Positions 1,744 to 60,455 of a DNA stretch of 64,000 bases are shown in pieces (positions within the stretch are counted from its first letter, which is position 1; each line of letters begins with the position of its first letter). The DNA is taken from assembly GCA_016186945.1 (NCBI GenBank), contig JACPKR010000013.1, forward strand, positions 1 to 64,000. Direction: 5' to 3'. The DNA is from Deltaproteobacteria bacterium. Lineage in GTDB: Bacteria; Bdellovibrionota_B; Oligoflexia; Oligoflexales; Bog-1112. The notes beneath the pieces are model-generated. The model worked only from the letters and a program-made list of their open reading frames with translations. It was not told the DNA's origin and ran no database searches. The translations under genes and the position numbers were made by a program.

Positions 1744-2051
1744 CTAATTACCAAGGGCAAGTATCTTTATTCGCAGGACGCAAGGGTGCCTTTCAAGGAG
1801 ACGGGGTGGGGAGTTTCCGACACCCGTTCCGAGGGAAAGCCTATGGGGTTCTGAGAAGTTTGAATCAGAAAACCGGCGCAAACCCCTCCTCAAATCTGAT
1901 TGCGCAGCTTTCAGATTAGGGGGGGTCAATAAAAAGGGAGAGGAAGGTTTGGGGGCGAGGGAAAAGCCTGCCCTGAACAAAGCGAAGGGTCGCTCCCCCA
2001 TTGAATTTCTTGGAGGAACCACCTCCACCTCCCTGCCCCAGAGGGCGCGGG
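1744..2051. repeat. degenerate family A element and hairpin
   Basis: The gap between the ATPase promoter and the lipoprotein stop holds no gene. From about 1936 to 2042 it resembles the family A element: a GGGAGAGGAAGG-type segment, a GTTTGGGGGCGAGGG segment, TTTCTTGGAGGAACCACC, then CTCCCTGCCCC, with the central hairpin lost and the terminal repeats decayed. A separate hairpin at 1893-1917 has AATCTGA/TCAGATT arms around a loop containing TGCGCAGC, resembling the loop of the family A hairpin with an unrelated stem. Confidence 0.6.
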
Positions 2052-8316: not shown

Positions 8317-8354
8317 AGTAATTTCTCGTCTTCCAGCATTAACTTATAACTAAA

Positions 8355-10506: not shown

Positions 10507-10513
10507 AAACAAG

Positions 10514-10574
10514 CCTCCCATGAATTTCTTGGAGGAACCAGCTGCGCAGTTTCCTCCAAACCACCTCCTTGCGG
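10514..10574 (+). repeat. family A fragment, copy A5
   Basis: A partial copy preserving GAATTTCTTGGAGGAACC, the CAGCTGCGCAG loop, TTTCCTCCAAACCACCTCC and TTGC, but neither terminal repeat. It fills nearly the whole gap between the PilZ-like gene and the TPR lipoprotein gene, ending a few bases before the latter's ribosome binding site. Confidence 0.8.
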
Positions 10575-10578
10575 TAAG

Positions 10579-11376
10579 TCAAAACGAATCCACCTCTACG
10601 AGCTTTTTCAAATAGGTCTTAAGGCTTAATAATGTTTTTTGAGACAGTTCCATGAACTCCCAACCAAAGAGATAGACTCTCTTCGCATCTTCCGGAGGAG
10701 CGTCCTCTTCTTCTTTTTCTTTAATGACTCGGGTCCAACGCAGAATCATTTTCATGGTCTGAGGAATTTCCAGGGGCAGATACAGGATCGCTCCCGACGC
10801 AATGTAACCCGGTTTGAGGCATGCATAGTATGCCGGAAAGAAGGTTCTGGTACACAAACCTCCCTTGCTAATGTTGTGAATTTCTGCGAGGTCTTTAAAT
10901 TCCTCGAACATGGGAACCGTGGCAGGAGCCAACATTACATCACTAGGAAGATCAGCTCCAAGCACAACAAAAGATTTCAGTGGCGAGCAAACTTCAAACC
11001 TTTCGTTCTTCCTCCTATCGAAAGTTGCGACCTGCTCAGGCAAAGAAAGAAGCAAGGAATGGTCCCCTGAATCCTTTATGACACACTCGAAGTTCAGACC
11101 GACATTGGAAACCATGATTTGAACACCTACGTAGCTGACATCCTTCAAATACGCCATCCCGCGATCGGACACTCCATAGACCAAAATTCCCATGATGGTG
11201 AAGCGACTTCGTTCTTCCGTTATGTAAAGACCGACCGCTTTTCCCAACACCTTTTTGTTTCCACCCGATAGTGGACGAATCAGTATACTAAGATTGGCTT
11301 TGCACACGCGTCTTAGAACTCGTAATATCCGACTTCGGTTGATGATCGAAATTTGCTTGGATTCGATTTCATTCAT
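10579..11376 (-). CDS. PilZ-domain-like protein
   Basis: The 265-residue protein has a C-terminal domain with the two signature motifs of PilZ, a cyclic di-GMP binding fold: RRKNER (121-126) and NISKGG (168-173), about 42 residues apart. The N-terminal half is a predicted beta-rich YcgR-like region. No signal peptide or membrane segment is seen, so it is likely cytoplasmic. It leads an operon with the CpoB-like and LysM genes, suggesting that second-messenger signalling is tied to envelope maintenance. I have not checked that the spacing between motifs fits the family in detail. Confidence 0.72.
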   Translation of the reverse strand: MNEIESKQISIINRSRILRVLRRVCKANLSILIRPLSGGNKKVLGKAVGLYITEERSRFTIMGILVYGVSDRGMAYLKDVSYVGVQIMVSNVGLNFECVIKDSGDHSLLLSLPEQVATFDRRKNERFEVCSPLKSFVVLGADLPSDVMLAPATVPMFEEFKDLAEIHNISKGGLCTRTFFPAYYACLKPGYIASGAILYLPLEIPQTMKMILRWTRVIKEKEEEDAPPEDAKRVYLFGWEFMELSQKTLLSLKTYLKKLVEVDSF

Positions 11377-11407
11377 TTTGTATCTATTTTATCATGATCT
11401 TAGTAGC

Positions 11408-11574
11408 TATGGTCTTTAGGAAAAAGAATTTGTGGAGAGTACCTTTTTTGAAAAAAAGTTCCCCTCCACACCTCCCCCCAAAAAACTTTAAATACTGAAG
11501 TTTTTGAAAAGGGGCTTGGGGAAATAACTTTTTTCAAAAAGTTTGTCCCCAAATTAATTATCTTGAACACTATC
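11408..11574 (-). mobile_element. family B MITE, copy B1 (full length, decayed ends)
   Basis: A 167-bp copy of family B in the orientation opposite to the copy at 19363. The ends TATGGTCTT and GAACACTATC each differ slightly from the consensus TATAGTATT and AATACTATA. Inside are three A/T-rich hairpins. It lies between the divergent PilZ-like and barrel protein genes and ends 12 bases before the latter's start codon. Confidence 0.85.
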
Positions 11575-12167: not shown

Positions 12168-13265
12168 TCATTCACACATAGCAAGGCGCACCGTACTGAG
12201 CCAGCCAAAATACATGCTGGGCCAGAGTGACTGTAGTCCGAAACTTTTGTAATACGATGTGCCAATGCTCTGCGAATCAGAAAAATTGAGCAGACTTTGA
12301 GAGACCATCGCAGTGCGATGTACAAAGATAAGTTCACTTCTAGCTGGCTGCGCCTCTCCCCTTACGAGCATGAAAAGTTCATTTCTCGTGGATTCCGTAT
12401 AACATTCGTATTCCACATTGCAAAAACCTTTGGCAGCGTCCTTGAATTCAAACTGTTCCATCGTCTCCGAGAGCTGTTTTGTGTAGGAGGTCCTAAAGTA
12501 GCCGCCAATCAGCACCCGCCGCTGGCAAAATGCGTTGGCTTTAATGAAATCAAATATTGTACTGACAACGCTCTCCAGTCTGGGAAGGGTAAGCTGAGCC
12601 TCAGACTGAAAGACAAATGCGTAGAGGGGCTGTCCGTTGGAAGAAAGTTCCTGAAAGAACAGGGATCCCTCTTTCCATTGCCAAAGTTTTCTCAGCTTTT
12701 CTGCCTTCAATGGAGGACTGACCGCGACCGCTATCAATTCGGATTCGCCAGATTCTTCAAATTTCCCTATAGCTTCTTCCTGCCAGTCATAGCCCTTGAG
12801 CGCTCCTGCCATGAGTATACTTCGATCTGATTCCAAAGGGTTATCATAACGCGCCATAACGCCCCCCAAAAGGAGCAGATCTGCTTGCGCATCCCACAAT
12901 TCCTTGTCAACGAGTTGGAGACGCTCGCGTCGGAAGAGCCAGTCACCTTTCCAACTTTGTCGAACGCTAGGGGCTTCTTCTTGCTGGTTGAAGAGGGAGA
13001 AACGTTGGATCTTCAGCTCATTCTTGTCGTAGACGACGCGGCCTTCGCTGACAACGGATTCAAAACATCCTGCAGGGGCCAATGTAAAAAGCAGAAGAAG
13101 GGGTAGTATGAGGGGGGAAATGCAACTTGTGGCAAAAAGGGAGAGGGGGGTTTGGGGGGGCGAGTGAAGCGTCGCCTCCCCCAAGGGATTTCTTGGAGGA
13201 ACCAGCTGCCAGTTTCCTCCAAACCACCTCCTTGCCCCAAGTCCCCTTCTGGTTTTTTTTAACAC
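12168..13265 (-). CDS. lipoprotein of unknown function with a repeat-derived leader
   Basis: The mature part is a hydrophilic protein of about 300 residues after a lipobox LAPAGC in a strong hydrophobic stretch (PLILPLLLLFTLAPAGC). It has no domain I know. The open frame begins with a GTG whose bases overlap the stop of the acyl-CoA dehydrogenase gene (GTGTTAA). From there about 50 residues are encoded by a family A element, giving an Arg/Pro/Gly-rich leader before the signal peptide. An internal start is likely but no ATG, GTG or TTG with a good ribosome binding site is evident, so the true start is unresolved. Confidence 0.6.
   Translation of the reverse strand: MLKKTRRGLGARRWFGGNWQLVPPRNPLGEATLHSPPQTPLSLFATSCISPLILPLLLLFTLAPAGCFESVVSEGRVVYDKNELKIQRFSLFNQQEEAPSVRQSWKGDWLFRRERLQLVDKELWDAQADLLLLGGVMARYDNPLESDRSILMAGALKGYDWQEEAIGKFEESGESELIAVAVSPPLKAEKLRKLWQWKEGSLFFQELSSNGQPLYAFVFQSEAQLTLPRLESVVSTIFDFIKANAFCQRRVLIGGYFRTSYTKQLSETMEQFEFKDAAKGFCNVEYECYTESTRNELFMLVRGEAQPARSELIFVHRTAMVSQSLLNFSDSQSIGTSYYKSFGLQSLWPSMYFGWLSTVRLAMCE
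13117..13243 (+). repeat. family A copy A3, decayed ends, inside a gene leader
   Basis: A near-complete copy in the orientation of the intact element at 18068. The interior (GGGAGAGGGGGGTTTGGG, the GGCGAGTGAAGCGTCGCC hairpin, CTTGGAGGAACC and CCACCTCCTTGCCCCAAG) is conserved, but the central loop has lost two bases and both terminal repeats are eroded. No target duplication is visible. It lies wholly within the 5' part of the lipoprotein frame at 12168-13265. Confidence 0.82.
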
Positions 13266-18008: not shown

Positions 18009-18067
18009 ACATTAACCTTCTTTTTCTTGCGAGTTCAACAAGGCTCCGCGCGGAAAGGCTAAGCCAG

Positions 18068-18214
18068 GTAATGCGTAAGCCACTTGGGGCAAATAGGGAG
18101 AGGGGGGTTTGGGGGGGCGAGGGAAGCGTCGCCTCCCCCAAGGGATTTCTTGGAGGAACCAGCTGCGCAGTTTCCTCCAAACCACCTCCTTGCCCCAAGT
18201 GGCTTACGCATTAC
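18068..18214 (+). mobile_element. family A MITE, copy A2 (intact, with 8-bp target duplication)
   Basis: A 147-bp element with perfect 25-bp terminal inverted repeats (18068-18092 and 18190-18214), starting GTAATGCGTAAGCC. It is flanked by identical 8-mers TAAGCCAG at 18060-18067 and 18215-18222. The interior holds a G-rich hairpin (GGCGA/TCGCC with C-rich extension) and the GGAGGAA/TTCCTCC hairpin with a CTGCGCAG-type loop. It has no coding capacity. Terminal GTAA and 8-bp duplications are typical of the IS66 family. Confidence 0.92.
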
Positions 18215-18355
18215 TAAGCCAGCAATAGAATGATCTTGAATTTAAAGGGAAATCTTGCTTAAAACCCCCGCATGGCAACAGACTGCCAGCTAATCCACTA
18301 CATGACAATGAAGGTTACTACAAGGGAGGAAATGGTGAGAAGACTGTAATTGCCC

Positions 18356-19329: not shown

Positions 19330-19362
19330 GTCAACCTCTCGGGTACCTGGCTGCATATTTGT

Positions 19363-19529
19363 TATAGTATTCAAGATAATCAATTTGGGGAAAAACTTTT
19401 TGAAAAAAGTTCTTTCCCCAAGCCCCTTTCCAAAAACTTCAATATCTAAAGTTTTTTGGGGGGAGGCGTGGAGGGGAACTTTTTTTCAAAAAAGGTCCTC
19501 TCCACAAACTCTTTTTCCCAAATACTATA
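19363..19529 (+). mobile_element. family B MITE, copy B2 (full length)
   Basis: A 167-bp element with ends TATAGTATT (19363-19371) and AATACTATA (19521-19529), a 9-bp inverted repeat that includes TA at the tips. Three hairpins follow: GGGGAAA/TTTCCCC, CCCCTTTCC-type with GGGGGG, and GGAGGGGAACTT with AAGGTCCTCTCC. It separates the divergent rodZ and TPR lipoprotein genes, ending two bases before the ATG of the latter. Confidence 0.88.
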
Positions 19530-19531
19530 TA

Positions 19532-21964: not shown

Positions 21965-21993
21965 AGCACCTCACATGCTCATTGTTTGTCTAC

Positions 21994-22086
21994 TATAGTA
22001 TTCAAGATAATCAATTTTGGGAAAAACTTTTTGAAAAAAGTTATTTCCCCAAGCCCCTTTTCAAAAACTTCAATATCAAATTCTTT
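21994..22086 (+). mobile_element. family B MITE, copy B3 (3' truncated)
   Basis: The left end TATAGTATTC and the first hairpin are intact, and similarity continues through AAAAACTTCAATATC to about 22086, where lipB-specific sequence begins. The right part is missing. The lipB frame enters the element from the right and terminates inside it at 22041. Confidence 0.8.
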
Positions 22087-22703
22087 TTCAGGCTCTTCAA
22101 AAGAGGAGGAATAGCCTCTTTTACCGAGATCGGCCTTTCCAAAGATGAGGACAAACTGCAAACGTTTTTTGCGCTGATCCCGCAAGGGATGATATTTTCG
22201 AAGGTTTTTAATGTATTTTCAATATTGATCGACAGTCCGTGATAGGACGCTCTCTCCCTGATCCGTATACCCACCGCAGCAAGCTTGGCGTTTCCAACCC
22301 ATACGCCCGGAAACTGATCCAGCCGACAGGCTGTCAAACCGAAATGTGCGGCAAGGTCTATGACGCTTTGCTCAAGCAGATATACCAATCTCCGCGGAGT
22401 CAGATGAAAGGAAGCCAACTTAAGAACCGGGTAGACGACAAGCTGCCCAGGTTCATGTGCCGTTACGTCTCCTCCTCGATCGACTCGCAGGAGCTTTACG
22501 CCTTGCTGAGCCAGGTCTTGTTCGGTTCTCAAAATATTGCCCGTCTTTGCATGTTTCCCGAGGGTAATCACACAGGGATGTTCGACCAGCAGAACAATTG
22601 AGGGGCGTCTACCTTCCACAACTTCGCGATGAACTTGCTTCTGCAATTCCCAGCAGTCCTCGTAGGGCGTGATGCCTAAAGTTTTGAATTCCAGAGCTTG
22701 CAA
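22041..22703 (-). CDS. lipB: octanoyltransferase LipB with repeat-derived C-terminus
   Basis: A 220-residue enzyme moving octanoyl groups from ACP to lipoyl domains, the first step of lipoate synthesis. RGGDVTAHEPGQL is the RGGxxTxHxPGQ signature. Cys174 in IIPCGI and Lys140 in NAKLAAVGIR are the expected catalytic pair. The last 13 residues (NLILKFLKRGLGK) and the stop codon are encoded by the family B element, so the original C-terminus was replaced; the catalytic core is intact. It follows yciO by nine bases in the folE-yciO-lipB operon. Confidence 0.95.
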   Translation of the reverse strand: MQALEFKTLGITPYEDCWELQKQVHREVVEGRRPSIVLLVEHPCVITLGKHAKTGNILRTEQDLAQQGVKLLRVDRGGDVTAHEPGQLVVYPVLKLASFHLTPRRLVYLLEQSVIDLAAHFGLTACRLDQFPGVWVGNAKLAAVGIRIRERASYHGLSINIENTLKTFENIIPCGISAKNVCSLSSSLERPISVKEAIPPLLKSLKKNLILKFLKRGLGK

Positions 22704-24445: not shown

Positions 24446-24446
24446 T

Positions 24447-24613
24447 TATAGTATTCAAGATAATCAATTTGGGGACAAACTTTTTGAAAAAAGTTATTTC
24501 CCCAAGCCCCTTTTTAAAAACTTCAATATTTAAAGTTTTTTGGGGGGAGGCGTGGAGGGGAACTTTTTTTCAAAAAAGGTCCTCTCCACAAATTCTTTTT
24601 CTCAAAGACTATA
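24447..24613 (+). mobile_element. family B MITE, copy B4 (full length)
   Basis: A 167-bp copy with left end TATAGTATT (24447-24455) and right end GACTATA (24607-24613). It occupies the whole space between the convergent dtd and DHH genes: the dtd stop ends at 24445 and the DHH stop begins at 24614. The strong hairpins with T-rich and A-rich loops could act as a bidirectional terminator. Confidence 0.88.
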
Positions 24614-25705
24614 TCAAACTTTCCCAGCCCCCAATTCGTTATCGAGAGCACCTTGCGCACCAATACCAATTTTTTCATAGAATAATTCGTCGATCGTTTT
24701 CTTGATGAGAATCCACAGAAGTTCCCTATCCTTGCACCGCGCAAATACTCCCAGGGGGATCTGGAAGCCGCCTTTATCCTTGCGTCCTCCTCCATACCAG
24801 GTGCCATCCTCTTTTTTTCCAAATACGTCTTTCAGCCATTTGTCAGGGTCGAGGGTGTGAGATTTCGTACGCAAGGAACCATCGACAAAAGTTCCGACAA
24901 TGCCATAGACAACGACCGTCTCGATCCCTTCCCGGTGCAAGAGATAATCTGCGCACTGACCAATGCCATCTCTGTCTTCTTCACGAACATAGCCTACACC
25001 CGAGAAGAGAAAGGTCTCCTTAATGTCCTTATGTTGCAAAGCGATCTGAGTCATATCCATTGTTTTTGCTGAAATCGCTTGCCTGGAAATTAAGGCAAGC
25101 AAGTCTTTATCCACGAACGTAGATAGAAATTGACTTGCGGAATAATCTAATGACGTAGCATTAACATAATCATCCGTATCAGCTCGAATTCCATGCATAA
25201 GCGCTGTTGCTATTTTCGTCTCATCTGCTAAGTCTCCCTTGAATTCCGAGCCTTGCAAATACTCCGTGTAAATTGATGATGTCGAGCCGACATTTTCTCT
25301 TACGTCCAAATGATGGGCTTTAACTGATCCGAGCGGCTTATGATGGTCGACAAACACGAGCAACTCGCAATGCTCTGGAATTTTGATGGGCAATTCGGTT
25401 GACTGAGAATCATTGATCGCAAAATACTGATAATTGCTCGCGTCAAAATCCGGACTGACTTGTTCCATATCAATATCAAGTTTTTTTACGAGCGCTCTAT
25501 TTTCATGGTGAGAAATATCGTCAAAATAGATGATCTTGGTGTTCAGTTTGTAAGACTTTGCCAACCAGTCCAAAGCGAGGGCACAAGCTATGTTGTCAGG
25601 ATCGGGGTATCCTTTTAAGCAGATGAGGAGGTTTTTCCCCCCAGCACTCTCCAGCACTGTATGAATGGATTCACTTTTGGAACTTGATTCTACCGTTTTA
25701 TTCAT
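24614..25705 (-). CDS. DHH-family phosphoesterase-like protein
   Basis: A 363-residue protein with the DHH phosphoesterase layout. An Asp-rich motif PDPDN (34-38) corresponds to the DxD-type motif I, IYFDD follows, and VDHHKPLG (119-126) is the DHH motif. The C-terminal GGGRKDKGGFQIPLGVFAR resembles the GG-x-x-x-GG of DHHA1 domains. Related proteins cleave oligoribonucleotides or cyclic dinucleotides, but substrate cannot be assigned. It is on the same strand as XPB-Bax1, separated from Bax1 by the short family B copy B5. Confidence 0.8.
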   Translation of the reverse strand: MNKTVESSSKSESIHTVLESAGGKNLLICLKGYPDPDNIACALALDWLAKSYKLNTKIIYFDDISHHENRALVKKLDIDMEQVSPDFDASNYQYFAINDSQSTELPIKIPEHCELLVFVDHHKPLGSVKAHHLDVRENVGSTSSIYTEYLQGSEFKGDLADETKIATALMHGIRADTDDYVNATSLDYSASQFLSTFVDKDLLALISRQAISAKTMDMTQIALQHKDIKETFLFSGVGYVREEDRDGIGQCADYLLHREGIETVVVYGIVGTFVDGSLRTKSHTLDPDKWLKDVFGKKEDGTWYGGGRKDKGGFQIPLGVFARCKDRELLWILIKKTIDELFYEKIGIGAQGALDNELGAGKV

Positions 25706-25739
25706 ACAAGGATTATTTTCTTTTGTTAGTATAGTATTT

Positions 25740-25812
25740 GGGAAAATGAATTTGTGGAGAGGAACCTTTTTTCAAAAAGGTTGTCCCCAAATTGATTATC
25801 TTGAATACTATA
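25740..25812 (-). mobile_element. family B MITE, copy B5 (short form)
   Basis: A 73-bp copy with perfect ends TATAGTATT (25740-25748) and AATACTATA (25804-25812). It keeps only one hairpin, made of one arm from the first and one from the third hairpin of the full element, as expected after internal deletion between similar arms. It lies between the start of the DHH gene and the stop of the Bax1-like gene. Confidence 0.85.
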
Positions 25813-31117: not shown

Positions 31118-31166
31118 AGTTAACTCGCCTCGACTTTTTTCAGTTCCAACCTTACCATCTGGTGTG

Positions 31167-31241
31167 CAAGATATTCAATTTGGGGACAAACTTTTTTTCA
31201 AAAAAGGTCCTCTCCACAAATTCTATTTCTCAAAGACTATA
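31167..31241 (+). mobile_element. family B MITE, copy B6 (short form, left end eroded)
   Basis: About 75 bp. The left tip has lost TATAGTATT but keeps CAAGATATTCAATTTGGGG; the right end is CTCAAAGACTATA. It has a single hairpin formed from GGGGACAAACTT and AAGGTCCTCTCC arms. It lies between divergent uppP and the small membrane protein gene, just upstream of the latter. Confidence 0.78.
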
Positions 31242-31248
31242 GAACGGA

Positions 31249-31515
31249 ATGAACATGTCACAAATCAGTTCTGTAAAAGACCAGTTTGATTCCATTCGTC
31301 AGCGCTCCGCGGCTCAGGAAAATCAGATCCTTCGGGAGATCCGCATTGAATCCTGGCAGAAGTCCGATGCGACGAAGGTTCTGATGGCCGAGCGGGTGAT
31401 CGGCATCCTAGCACTCCCTGTATTGTTTCTGTGGGCCTTGATTCTCATGGCGCTTAGCATAGGTGTGGCCCTTTCCCTGGCTGTTTTTCAGTTATTCAAC
31501 AAGTTGCTTCGGTAA
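31249..31515 (+). CDS. small membrane protein
   Basis: An 88-residue protein with a soluble, charged N-terminal half predicted to form a helix or coiled coil (VKDQFDSIRQRSAAQENQIL) and a hydrophobic C-terminal half with one or two membrane segments (ILALPVLFLWALILMALSIG). ATGs at 31249 and 31255 are both possible, with a weak GGA site. The 3' end overlaps ruvB by 20 bases on the opposite strand. No family recognised. Confidence 0.55.
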   Translation: MNMSQISSVKDQFDSIRQRSAAQENQILREIRIESWQKSDATKVLMAERVIGILALPVLFLWALILMALSIGVALSLAVFQLFNKLLR

Positions 31516-39785: not shown

Positions 39786-39961
39786 TCGTGTTTCCTTTTA
39801 CTTAGTGCTTGCGTCACCTGAGCTTCTTACCCTGCAGGCAGTCAAAATACAAATCCTTTTGGAAGGGATACACTCGACTGGGCTAGAAACATTCAGGAAA
39901 TGATTTCAAGACTCGAGAACCATTAAGTTACCATGAGCTTAGGGGTTATACAAGATTTGTA

Positions 39962-40018
39962 GCAAGGAGGTGGTTTGGAGGAAACTGCGCAGCTGGTTCC
40001 TCCAAACCACCTCCTTGC
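39962..40018. repeat. family A hairpin fragment, copy A6
   Basis: A symmetric hairpin: GGAGGTGGTTTGGAGGAA and TTCCTCCAAACCACCTCC arms (19 bp or so) around an ACTGCGCAGCTGG loop, preceded by CAA and followed by TTGCCCCG. The rest of the element is gone. It lies about 175 bases upstream of nusA, following the lipoprotein gene whose stop is at 40031. It could serve as a terminator or a processing site, but it lacks a T-run. Confidence 0.75.
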
Positions 40019-40030
40019 CCCGAGCGCTTT

Positions 40031-40435
40031 TCACATGACTACGTTTTTAATAGCATGAGCACGCACATAGGGGATTCCCTTTTTCCCTCTTTCAACCATT
40101 CCAAGAATTTTCACGCGTAAGTTTCTGTTTTCCTTGACGGTAAAGCCCTGAAGCCCAGTCAAGATGACAAGCATCCTTGCCGACTCGTCGCTGACAACAA
40201 CATAGGTCAGATATTTACCAACATCGACAATTTCACCCTCGATGACGACCTGACGACCGACCATAGGCGTGTTGTCGAGATGGATCTGCTTGATGGAAAC
40301 TTCCTCAGGTTCGGAAAAAACCGTAGCGCCTAACGACTGGAAGCTCTTGTTATCAATATCGTGTGCAAAATCAACAAGAGAATAGTTGCAGCTTTGCAGA
40401 AGGAAACTCAAGAATAAGGGCAGAAAAACCTTCAT
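40031..40435 (-). CDS. OB-fold-like lipoprotein
   Basis: The 134-residue product starts at the ATG at 40435 with a lipoprotein signal MKVFLPLFLSFLLQSC (Cys16). The mature part has alternating strands (GRQVVIEGEIVDVGKYLTYVVVSDESARMLVILTG and LRVKILGMVERGKKGIPYVRAHAI), a pattern like the bacterial OB-fold (tRNA_anti-like/BOF) lipoproteins. Function unknown. The longer start at 40459 adds eight residues before the signal and has no clear ribosome binding site. Confidence 0.65.
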   Translation of the reverse strand: MKVFLPLFLSFLLQSCNYSLVDFAHDIDNKSFQSLGATVFSEPEEVSIKQIHLDNTPMVGRQVVIEGEIVDVGKYLTYVVVSDESARMLVILTGLQGFTVKENRNLRVKILGMVERGKKGIPYVRAHAIKNVVM

Positions 40436-40474
40436 GACGACTCCGCAATGGACTTCCATTGCCTAATTTTACTC

Positions 40475-40515
40475 TATAGTATTCAAGACAATCAATTTTG
40501 GGAAAAACTTTTTCG
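40475..40515 (+). repeat. family B left-end fragment, copy B7
   Basis: The left end TATAGTATTCAAGACAATC and the start of the first hairpin arm (GGGAAAAACTTTTT) are recognisable, after which the element is cut off by an unrelated palindrome. It lies between the OB-fold lipoprotein start and the rplQ stop. Confidence 0.75.
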
Positions 40516-59413: not shown

Positions 59414-60455
59414 TAGCCAAGCATTTGCTTGGAGGAACCAGCTGCGCAGTTTCCTCCAAACCACATCCTTGCCAGTTCTCGCTCTAATTGCTTTGTCCAT
59501 GCCGACCCTCGTCTTTGGAAAATTCTATTTTCTGACAAATGAATGCCAACTCCCGTCGGATCCGGTGGATGAAAAGGGTAGCTTGTCACGTTCCTTTTTT
59601 CTATGTGCCAATGGTCTTGCGAACTTAGACGGGATGTACATCACGAATAAGAGATTTGCTTCCTTAAGCCGTTACAAAATCAAGACATCATTTCACTATG
59701 GGCTAAAGCACACCCTTTTCTACCAGGGTTACATGGAGCAGATGGGGGGCACAGGGGACGAGTTGCCGTTTCAGAGAGAGTCAAGAAGTGAGCTTGCCAT
59801 CTACCAATACGGCACGCCGGGTAGTGATAGGGTTCTTTTCCGTGTCGGTCATGGTCTTTTGCCATTTGGGATCAACCGAACGCCGCTTGTGGGCCTCAAC
59901 CAGCTTTTTGACCCCCGTTTCTTCTGGGGTTCTCCTCTTCCTCATGTTGGACTCACGCTGGACAACTTGAAAAACTTGACTTTTGAAGTTGCCGCTGGCT
60001 TGGAAAAAGAGATCGATGGAGACGAGAGTAAAGACTACAGTTTTTCGTCGCGAGTCATGTACGACTTCTCGGTTCTAAACGGGACCCGTGCCGTTCTTTC
60101 TTTCCTGGGCCAAAAGTCAGGTCCTCGCAAAATGGGAATCGGTCTGCTCAATTTTGCGCCCAACCGTAGTCTTTTTCACCTTGAGTGGGCACGATACCGC
60201 AGCGCACCTTCTGGAGAAGAAGAGCCGGACCGACGGCTCCTTCGCATCGCTTACCAGGATCCTCCTCGCGCGAAGGCACAGACCTATGTTTTGTACGATG
60301 ACGTCAATTTTCAACACCGACTGCTAGTGGTCGGCTCAAAACTTAGTTTTAACACCCAGTTTAACACAAACCTTGCTATCGCTTACAAAAAGGATGAAAC
60401 TGGAATGAAAAGACATCGTTGGTATTTTAGTGGCGGTCTTGGATTTCAATTATGA
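59391..60455 (+). CDS. predicted outer-membrane protein of the envelope cluster
   Basis: A 354-residue (from the ATG at 59391) exported protein. The signal peptide core is LPVLALIALSMPTLVFG, preceded by about 29 residues partly encoded by a family A fragment. The rest alternates strands and turns (VLFRVGHGLLPFGINRTPLV, LSFNTQFNTNLAIAYKKDE) and ends in FQL, suggesting a porin-like barrel. The start is uncertain: the insertion seems to have disturbed the leader. The 3' end overlaps the next gene by four bases and its 5' end overlaps the preceding one by 23. Confidence 0.6.
   Translation: MFTRKQIDSQAFAWRNQLRSFLQTTSLPVLALIALSMPTLVFGKFYFLTNECQLPSDPVDEKGSLSRSFFLCANGLANLDGMYITNKRFASLSRYKIKTSFHYGLKHTLFYQGYMEQMGGTGDELPFQRESRSELAIYQYGTPGSDRVLFRVGHGLLPFGINRTPLVGLNQLFDPRFFWGSPLPHVGLTLDNLKNLTFEVAAGLEKEIDGDESKDYSFSSRVMYDFSVLNGTRAVLSFLGQKSGPRKMGIGLLNFAPNRSLFHLEWARYRSAPSGEEEPDRRLLRIAYQDPPRAKAQTYVLYDDVNFQHRLLVVGSKLSFNTQFNTNLAIAYKKDETGMKRHRWYFSGGLGFQL
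59426..59475 (+). repeat. family A fragment, copy A7
   Basis: A fragment with GCTTGGAGGAACC, the CAGCTGCGCAG loop, TTTCCTCCAAACCAC and CCTTGCC. It lies in frame inside the leader of the predicted outer-membrane protein, just 3' of the stop of sulfatase-fold enzyme 2. Confidence 0.75.

Follow-up and report, generated by a model that had tools for sequence, protein, structure and literature searches.

A GTAA-ended MITE that encloses a REP pair and serves as a fixed landing site for an IS110/IS1111-type element

Introduction

Bacterial MITEs, including Nezha, NEMIS, RUP, ERIC and others, are non-coding elements of 70-300 bp with inverted ends, a high copy number and a strong hairpin. REP pairs form a separate class of repeats and are normally credited to RAYT transposases. 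In REPINs, or REP dimers, two inverted palindromes are separated by a short spacer, are present in hundreds of copies and possess a covarying stem (PMC3116915; PMC3733652), and for A. variabilis as well as H. neapolitanus, REP dimers lying within longer palindromes have been described (PMC3733652). Palindromes of this kind can themselves be targets, as IS110 and IS1111 elements directed to REPs or other palindromes via a guide RNA are known (PMC11187229, PMC11208160); the REP-targeting elements IS621 and ISPa11 have a DEDD-type GIDVHK start and use one fixed step in the palindrome, with no long duplication. The IS66 family, including the ISBst12 group, has GTAA ends of about 20-25 bp and an 8-bp target duplication. 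The target duplication of IS66 may also be 9 bp. Published IS66 elements show the GTAA ends together with the 8-bp repeat (PMC12898284, PMC12888890).

The element described here has the features listed above for bacterial MITEs but, unlike those of the Nezha, NEMIS, RUP and ERIC type, its cargo is an entire REP pair that is also found by itself, and it serves as a fixed landing site for an IS110-type element. Its interior has the layout, abundance and stem covariation of REPINs; unlike in REPINs, the enclosing ends have target duplications of 8-9 bp, no GTAG/CGTC tag is recognized and no RAYT gene was found beside the REP. The ends and duplications resemble those of IS66, although no such transposase was found in the MITE or in the assembly and the end differs after GTAA from those of the IS66 elements compared. 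The IS110/IS1111-type insert shares the start and the fixed step of IS621 and ISPa11, but its target is hairpin 1 of the MITE and it is known from its ends alone.

Results

MITE Copies in the Window and in the Genome

The stretch of DNA that was analyzed (the window, 64,000 nucleotides) forms the beginning of contig 14 in a genome of 2.66 Mb that was assembled in 76 contigs and is 91% complete (about 9% missing). It contains two MITE copies, A2 and A1, with the following features (TIR, terminal inverted repeat).

18068-18214, plus strand: MITE copy A2, 147 bp, with two TIRs; 39 further genome copies score 96-100% identity
18060-18067: left target-site duplication of A2, TAAGCCAG
18215-18222: right target-site duplication of A2, TAAGCCAG
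18068-18092, plus strand: left TIR of A2, GTAATGCGTAAGCCACTTGGGGCAA
18190-18214, minus strand: right TIR of A2, 25/25 identical to the left
18109-18141, plus strand: hairpin 1 of A2, a diverged REP
18150-18180, plus strand: hairpin 2 of A2, REP TTGGAGGAACCAGCTGCGCAGTTTCCTCCAA
8355-8500, minus strand: MITE copy A1, 146 bp, in the orientation opposite to A2
8347-8354: left target-site duplication of A1, TAACTAAA
8501-8508: right target-site duplication of A1, TAACTAAA
8389-8419, minus strand: REP hairpin within A1

The MITE has GTAATGCGTAAGCCACTTGGG ends, and in A1 one of the two ends has three mismatches. Chance matches to the MITE end in the window numbered 0 in 100 shuffles. Genome-wide, we found 248 ends with at most 3 mismatches, as compared with 0 in the reversed control; a whole-genome search scored 40 copies that are 96-100% identical, and the copy number in the genome is at least about 115. 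The element is non-coding and about 144-147 bp long, with GTAA ends of 21-25 bp. For a copy-by-copy analysis, the stretches around about 110 matches were taken. An exact target duplication was present in 26 of the 71 listed two-ended copies (a list in which two copies are counted twice via alternative left ends), 20 of them with 8 bp and 6 with 9 bp, as compared with 0.38 on average and never more than 4 when the flanks were re-paired 10,000 times. No exact duplication of 4-7 or 10-12 bp was seen among the same 71 copies. The duplications lie at unrelated sites and have no evident common sequence. The element is a genuine MITE.

These data bear out most of what an earlier note on this DNA had proposed, namely a MITE with 25-bp TIRs, perfect in one copy, 8-bp duplications, a hairpin-rich interior, no transposase in the window and a long period of activity. 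The duplications recur genome-wide, with 9 bp as a second length; the interior consists of two inverted REP hairpins; no transposase was seen in the window; and the copies span the range from nearly identical to strongly decayed.

An apparent element of 1,052 bp in locus L009 proved to be two neighboring MITEs, each with its own duplication. In locus L130 (positions 166-345), there are about four tandem copies of a 45-bp unit, each made up of a MITE end and half a REP.

Near-exact MITE ends were absent from 37 related genomes, an exact 20-base piece of the end was not found in the GTDB species collection (which may omit this genome), and the end had no match in plasmids or phages; a 17-base match in two viral contigs was dismissed as chance. 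The MITE is thus apparently absent from the 37 relatives.

Decayed and End-Less Copies in the Window

Further sequences related to the MITE lie elsewhere in the window.

13122-13240, plus strand: decayed MITE copy, both ends degraded
39957-40042, minus strand: decayed copy, REP palindrome and degraded end, without hairpin 1
10512-10579, plus strand: REP without MITE ends
59425-59479, plus strand: REP without MITE ends
1931-2045, plus strand: strongly decayed relative of the MITE interior, two hairpins, no ends

Hence the proposal that the window holds decayed copies stands for 13122-13240 and 39957-40042, whereas at 10512-10579 and 59425-59479 the sequence resembles the interior palindrome alone.

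Another interspersed family of repeats, characterized by TATAGT ends and by a palindrome rich in A/T, was noticed at 11407-11573, 19362-19530, 21993-22161 and 24446-24614, with further copies at 25729-25811, 31157-31249 and 40474-40513; in locus L112, a MITE end is fused to this family. At the very start of the contig, an Rfam group II intron domain (RF02012) was matched on the minus strand at 17-152, which suggests a multi-copy intron at an assembly break.

The Mobilizing Transposase

The ends of the MITE begin with GTAA (248 ends) and are bordered by duplications of 8-9 bp, both of which are as in IS66. In line with this, an IS66 element of the relative G023 (locus L075) carries GTAAGCG at its ends, and the 8-mer AATTATTC borders it unchanged on either side. 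Neither the IS66 transposase (PF03050) nor IS66 TnpB (PF05717) was found in the 91% complete assembly, which lacks the interiors of multi-copy elements, and no transposase with matching ends was found among the ends listed, contigs 56-76 being less covered. Since such interiors, for example those of the IS110-type element described below, are missing from the assembly, the absence of IS66 genes is weak evidence. The IS66 loci of the relatives matched the MITE end at 14-15 of 24 positions at best, which equals the background, and were unlike it beyond GTAA. Of the earlier suggestion of an IS66 origin, the pattern of ends and duplications fits and the parentage is plausible, although neither the gene content of the assembly nor the relatives' IS66 ends lend it support.

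Another family with duplications of 8-9 bp, for example an IS256-, IS4- or ISAs1-like one, could have mobilized the MITE instead. An assembly without an IS66 gene and the divergence of the relatives' IS66 ends after GTAA are what this would lead one to see. However, GTAA combined with 8-9 bp is the IS66 pattern, as seen in L075 and in the published elements (PMC12898284, PMC12888890), and the loss of multi-copy interiors deprives the missing gene of much of its meaning; we therefore regard a non-IS66 family as possible but rather doubtful. An IS66-like enzyme is in our opinion the likeliest mobilizer, with slightly better than even confidence.

The REP Pair Inside the MITE

The interior of the MITE consists of two inverted REP-like hairpins, i.e., a REPIN, in which the REP TTGGAGGAACCAGCTGCGCAGTTTCCTCCAA is followed by a CCTCCTTGC tail. 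When REPs were counted by a 21-base core with at most 2 mismatches, 411 copies were found in this genome, 92 in G005 and 118 in G007, which represent two other genera of the same family, as compared with none in the remaining 35 genomes or in the reversed control. In G005 and G007 the REPs occur without MITE ends, and locus L059 of G005 holds an inverted REP pair with the layout seen in the MITE but without the ends. Conversely, the same MITE ends adjoin other REP pairs in loci L098, L116 and L134.

The REP stem covaries, as 7 pairs are changed on both sides, with 68 double-change cells across the three genera. The covariation score was 0.414, as compared with 0.117 in shuffled and at most 0.104 in slid alignments; the 37 rows were picked by loop sequence, after which near-duplicates and obvious chance matches were discarded by eye, a selection that biases the absolute values in favor of the structure. 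The tail reads GCAAGG/CCTTGC, in which a GTAG or CGTC tag was not recognized, and no RAYT gene was found beside the REP. Among the Y1 transposases that were inspected in G000, G005 and G007, the REP is not a consistent neighbor, and they were rejected as REP mobilizers, being either IS200/IS605-like or not REP-flanked.

Since the REPs are found in two other genera without MITE ends, the MITE probably enclosed a pre-existing REP pair, an order that we infer from distribution only. The opposite order, in which the MITE came first and free REPs are remnants of MITEs with lost ends, is suggested by the clearly decayed MITEs at 13122-13240 and 39957-40042. However, about 100 REPs are present in each of G005 and G007 with zero MITE ends, and the pair in L059 has none either, so that we consider this order improbable.

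Two further observations concern the surroundings of the REPs. In G007 (loci L052, L054, L056, L060 and L203), the same REP bounds, in inverted orientation, elements of 200-500 bp with shared internal blocks. REP words were also found within 60 bp in 14 of 161 MITE flanks, as compared with 1.4% of random 60-mers of the window (loci L014, L020, L098, L101, L130 and L152); both families may simply favor intergenic DNA.

An IS110/IS1111-Type Element Inserted in Hairpin 1

At 14 contig ends, a MITE or a decayed MITE interior gives way to an inserted sequence that all of them share. The left junction of this insert is seen at eight of the ends, as GGCGAG|TTACTATG, and its right junction at six, as CACATAAC|AGGGAACCG; in every case hairpin 1 is thus interrupted at the same AG step, whose counterpart in A2 is AG 18120-18121. 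Insertion occurred at one base step in 14/14 junctions and without a long duplication. The first readable residues of the insert are MRVSYQGKTVNVGIDVHKQ, with a GIDVHK amino-terminus. An alignment of 19 readable residues with the IS110 transposases of two relatives gave scores of 55-58, as compared with 33 for the best of 144 window reading frames; searches of Pfam, NCBIfam and PDB with 22 residues returned no match. Judged by these residues and by the junctions, the inserted element is of the IS110/IS1111 type.

In four cases (L162, L163, L164 and L171), the element that bears the junction has no intact MITE end, which argues for independent insertions, and the insert is also present in elements with different private mutations. 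The interior of the insert is missing from the assembly, although at least 8 copies exist. The MITE duplications allow two pairs of contigs to be linked over the gap left by the insert, C46 with C30 (GGGTGGAA) and C59 with C16 (GAAGGGCC). In locus L161 (C76:1-126), the IS110-type element has its right end in two tandem copies spaced 81 bp apart.

A longer element bounded by both MITE ends, with AG/AG microhomology at its junction, might be taken for an autonomous parent of which the MITE is an internal deletion. This is very unlikely, and we rejected the insert as the parent, because its amino-terminus is that of an IS110-type transposase, at least four insert-bearing elements have no intact MITE end, and the private mutations of its hosts differ. 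To our knowledge, IS110-type transposases are not associated with inverted ends and 8-bp duplications.

Finally, the strong folding of the whole element (z of -9.2 and -10.5) and the covarying interior hairpin might invite the view that the MITE ends belong to a structural RNA or REP family and not to a transposon. This view is contradicted by the exact duplications of 8-9 bp that border the ends at 26 unrelated sites, and it is scarcely credible; what covaries is the REP, a unit also present without MITE ends, and no Rfam match was obtained at the element.

Discussion

The data presented above can be accounted for by a non-autonomous DNA transposon of about 144-147 bp, whose 21-25-bp GTAA ends would be recognized in trans by a DDE-type transposase making a staggered cut of 8-9 bp, as the duplications suggest. 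Its cargo would be a REPIN, two inverted REP hairpins that are independently present in this bacterial family, and judging from the distribution, enclosure may have provided a second route of REP amplification. Hairpin 1 is in turn the fixed landing site for an IS110/IS1111-type element, which enters at one base step with no long duplication, presumably by the guide-RNA mechanism of that family. We hold this account as a whole, a trans-mobilized MITE with a REPIN as cargo and a fixed IS110/IS1111-type target, to be quite probable. The more specific proposal, that the ends of a DDE transposon captured a REPIN and so gave a palindrome family a second and unrelated transposition mechanism, with the high-copy hairpin as the dedicated landing pad of a guide-RNA-directed IS110-type element, seems to us evenly balanced between right and wrong.

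Each part of this combination has published precedent, and an incomplete literature search returned none for MITE, REP pair and IS110-type target combined; what appears new here is the REP pair as cargo together with the fixed IS110-type landing site. The MITE links three kinds of mobile DNA that are usually studied apart and, if the account is true, three mobile systems are nested in about 150 bp. Draft genomes such as this one lose repeated interiors during assembly, so that the absence of a transposase from them says little. Since the REP pair travels with 8-9 bp duplications of its own, an alternative mode of REP spread becomes directly testable. The near-identical hairpins would amount to roughly a hundred potential landing sites for the IS110-type element, a natural case of site-specific transposon targeting.
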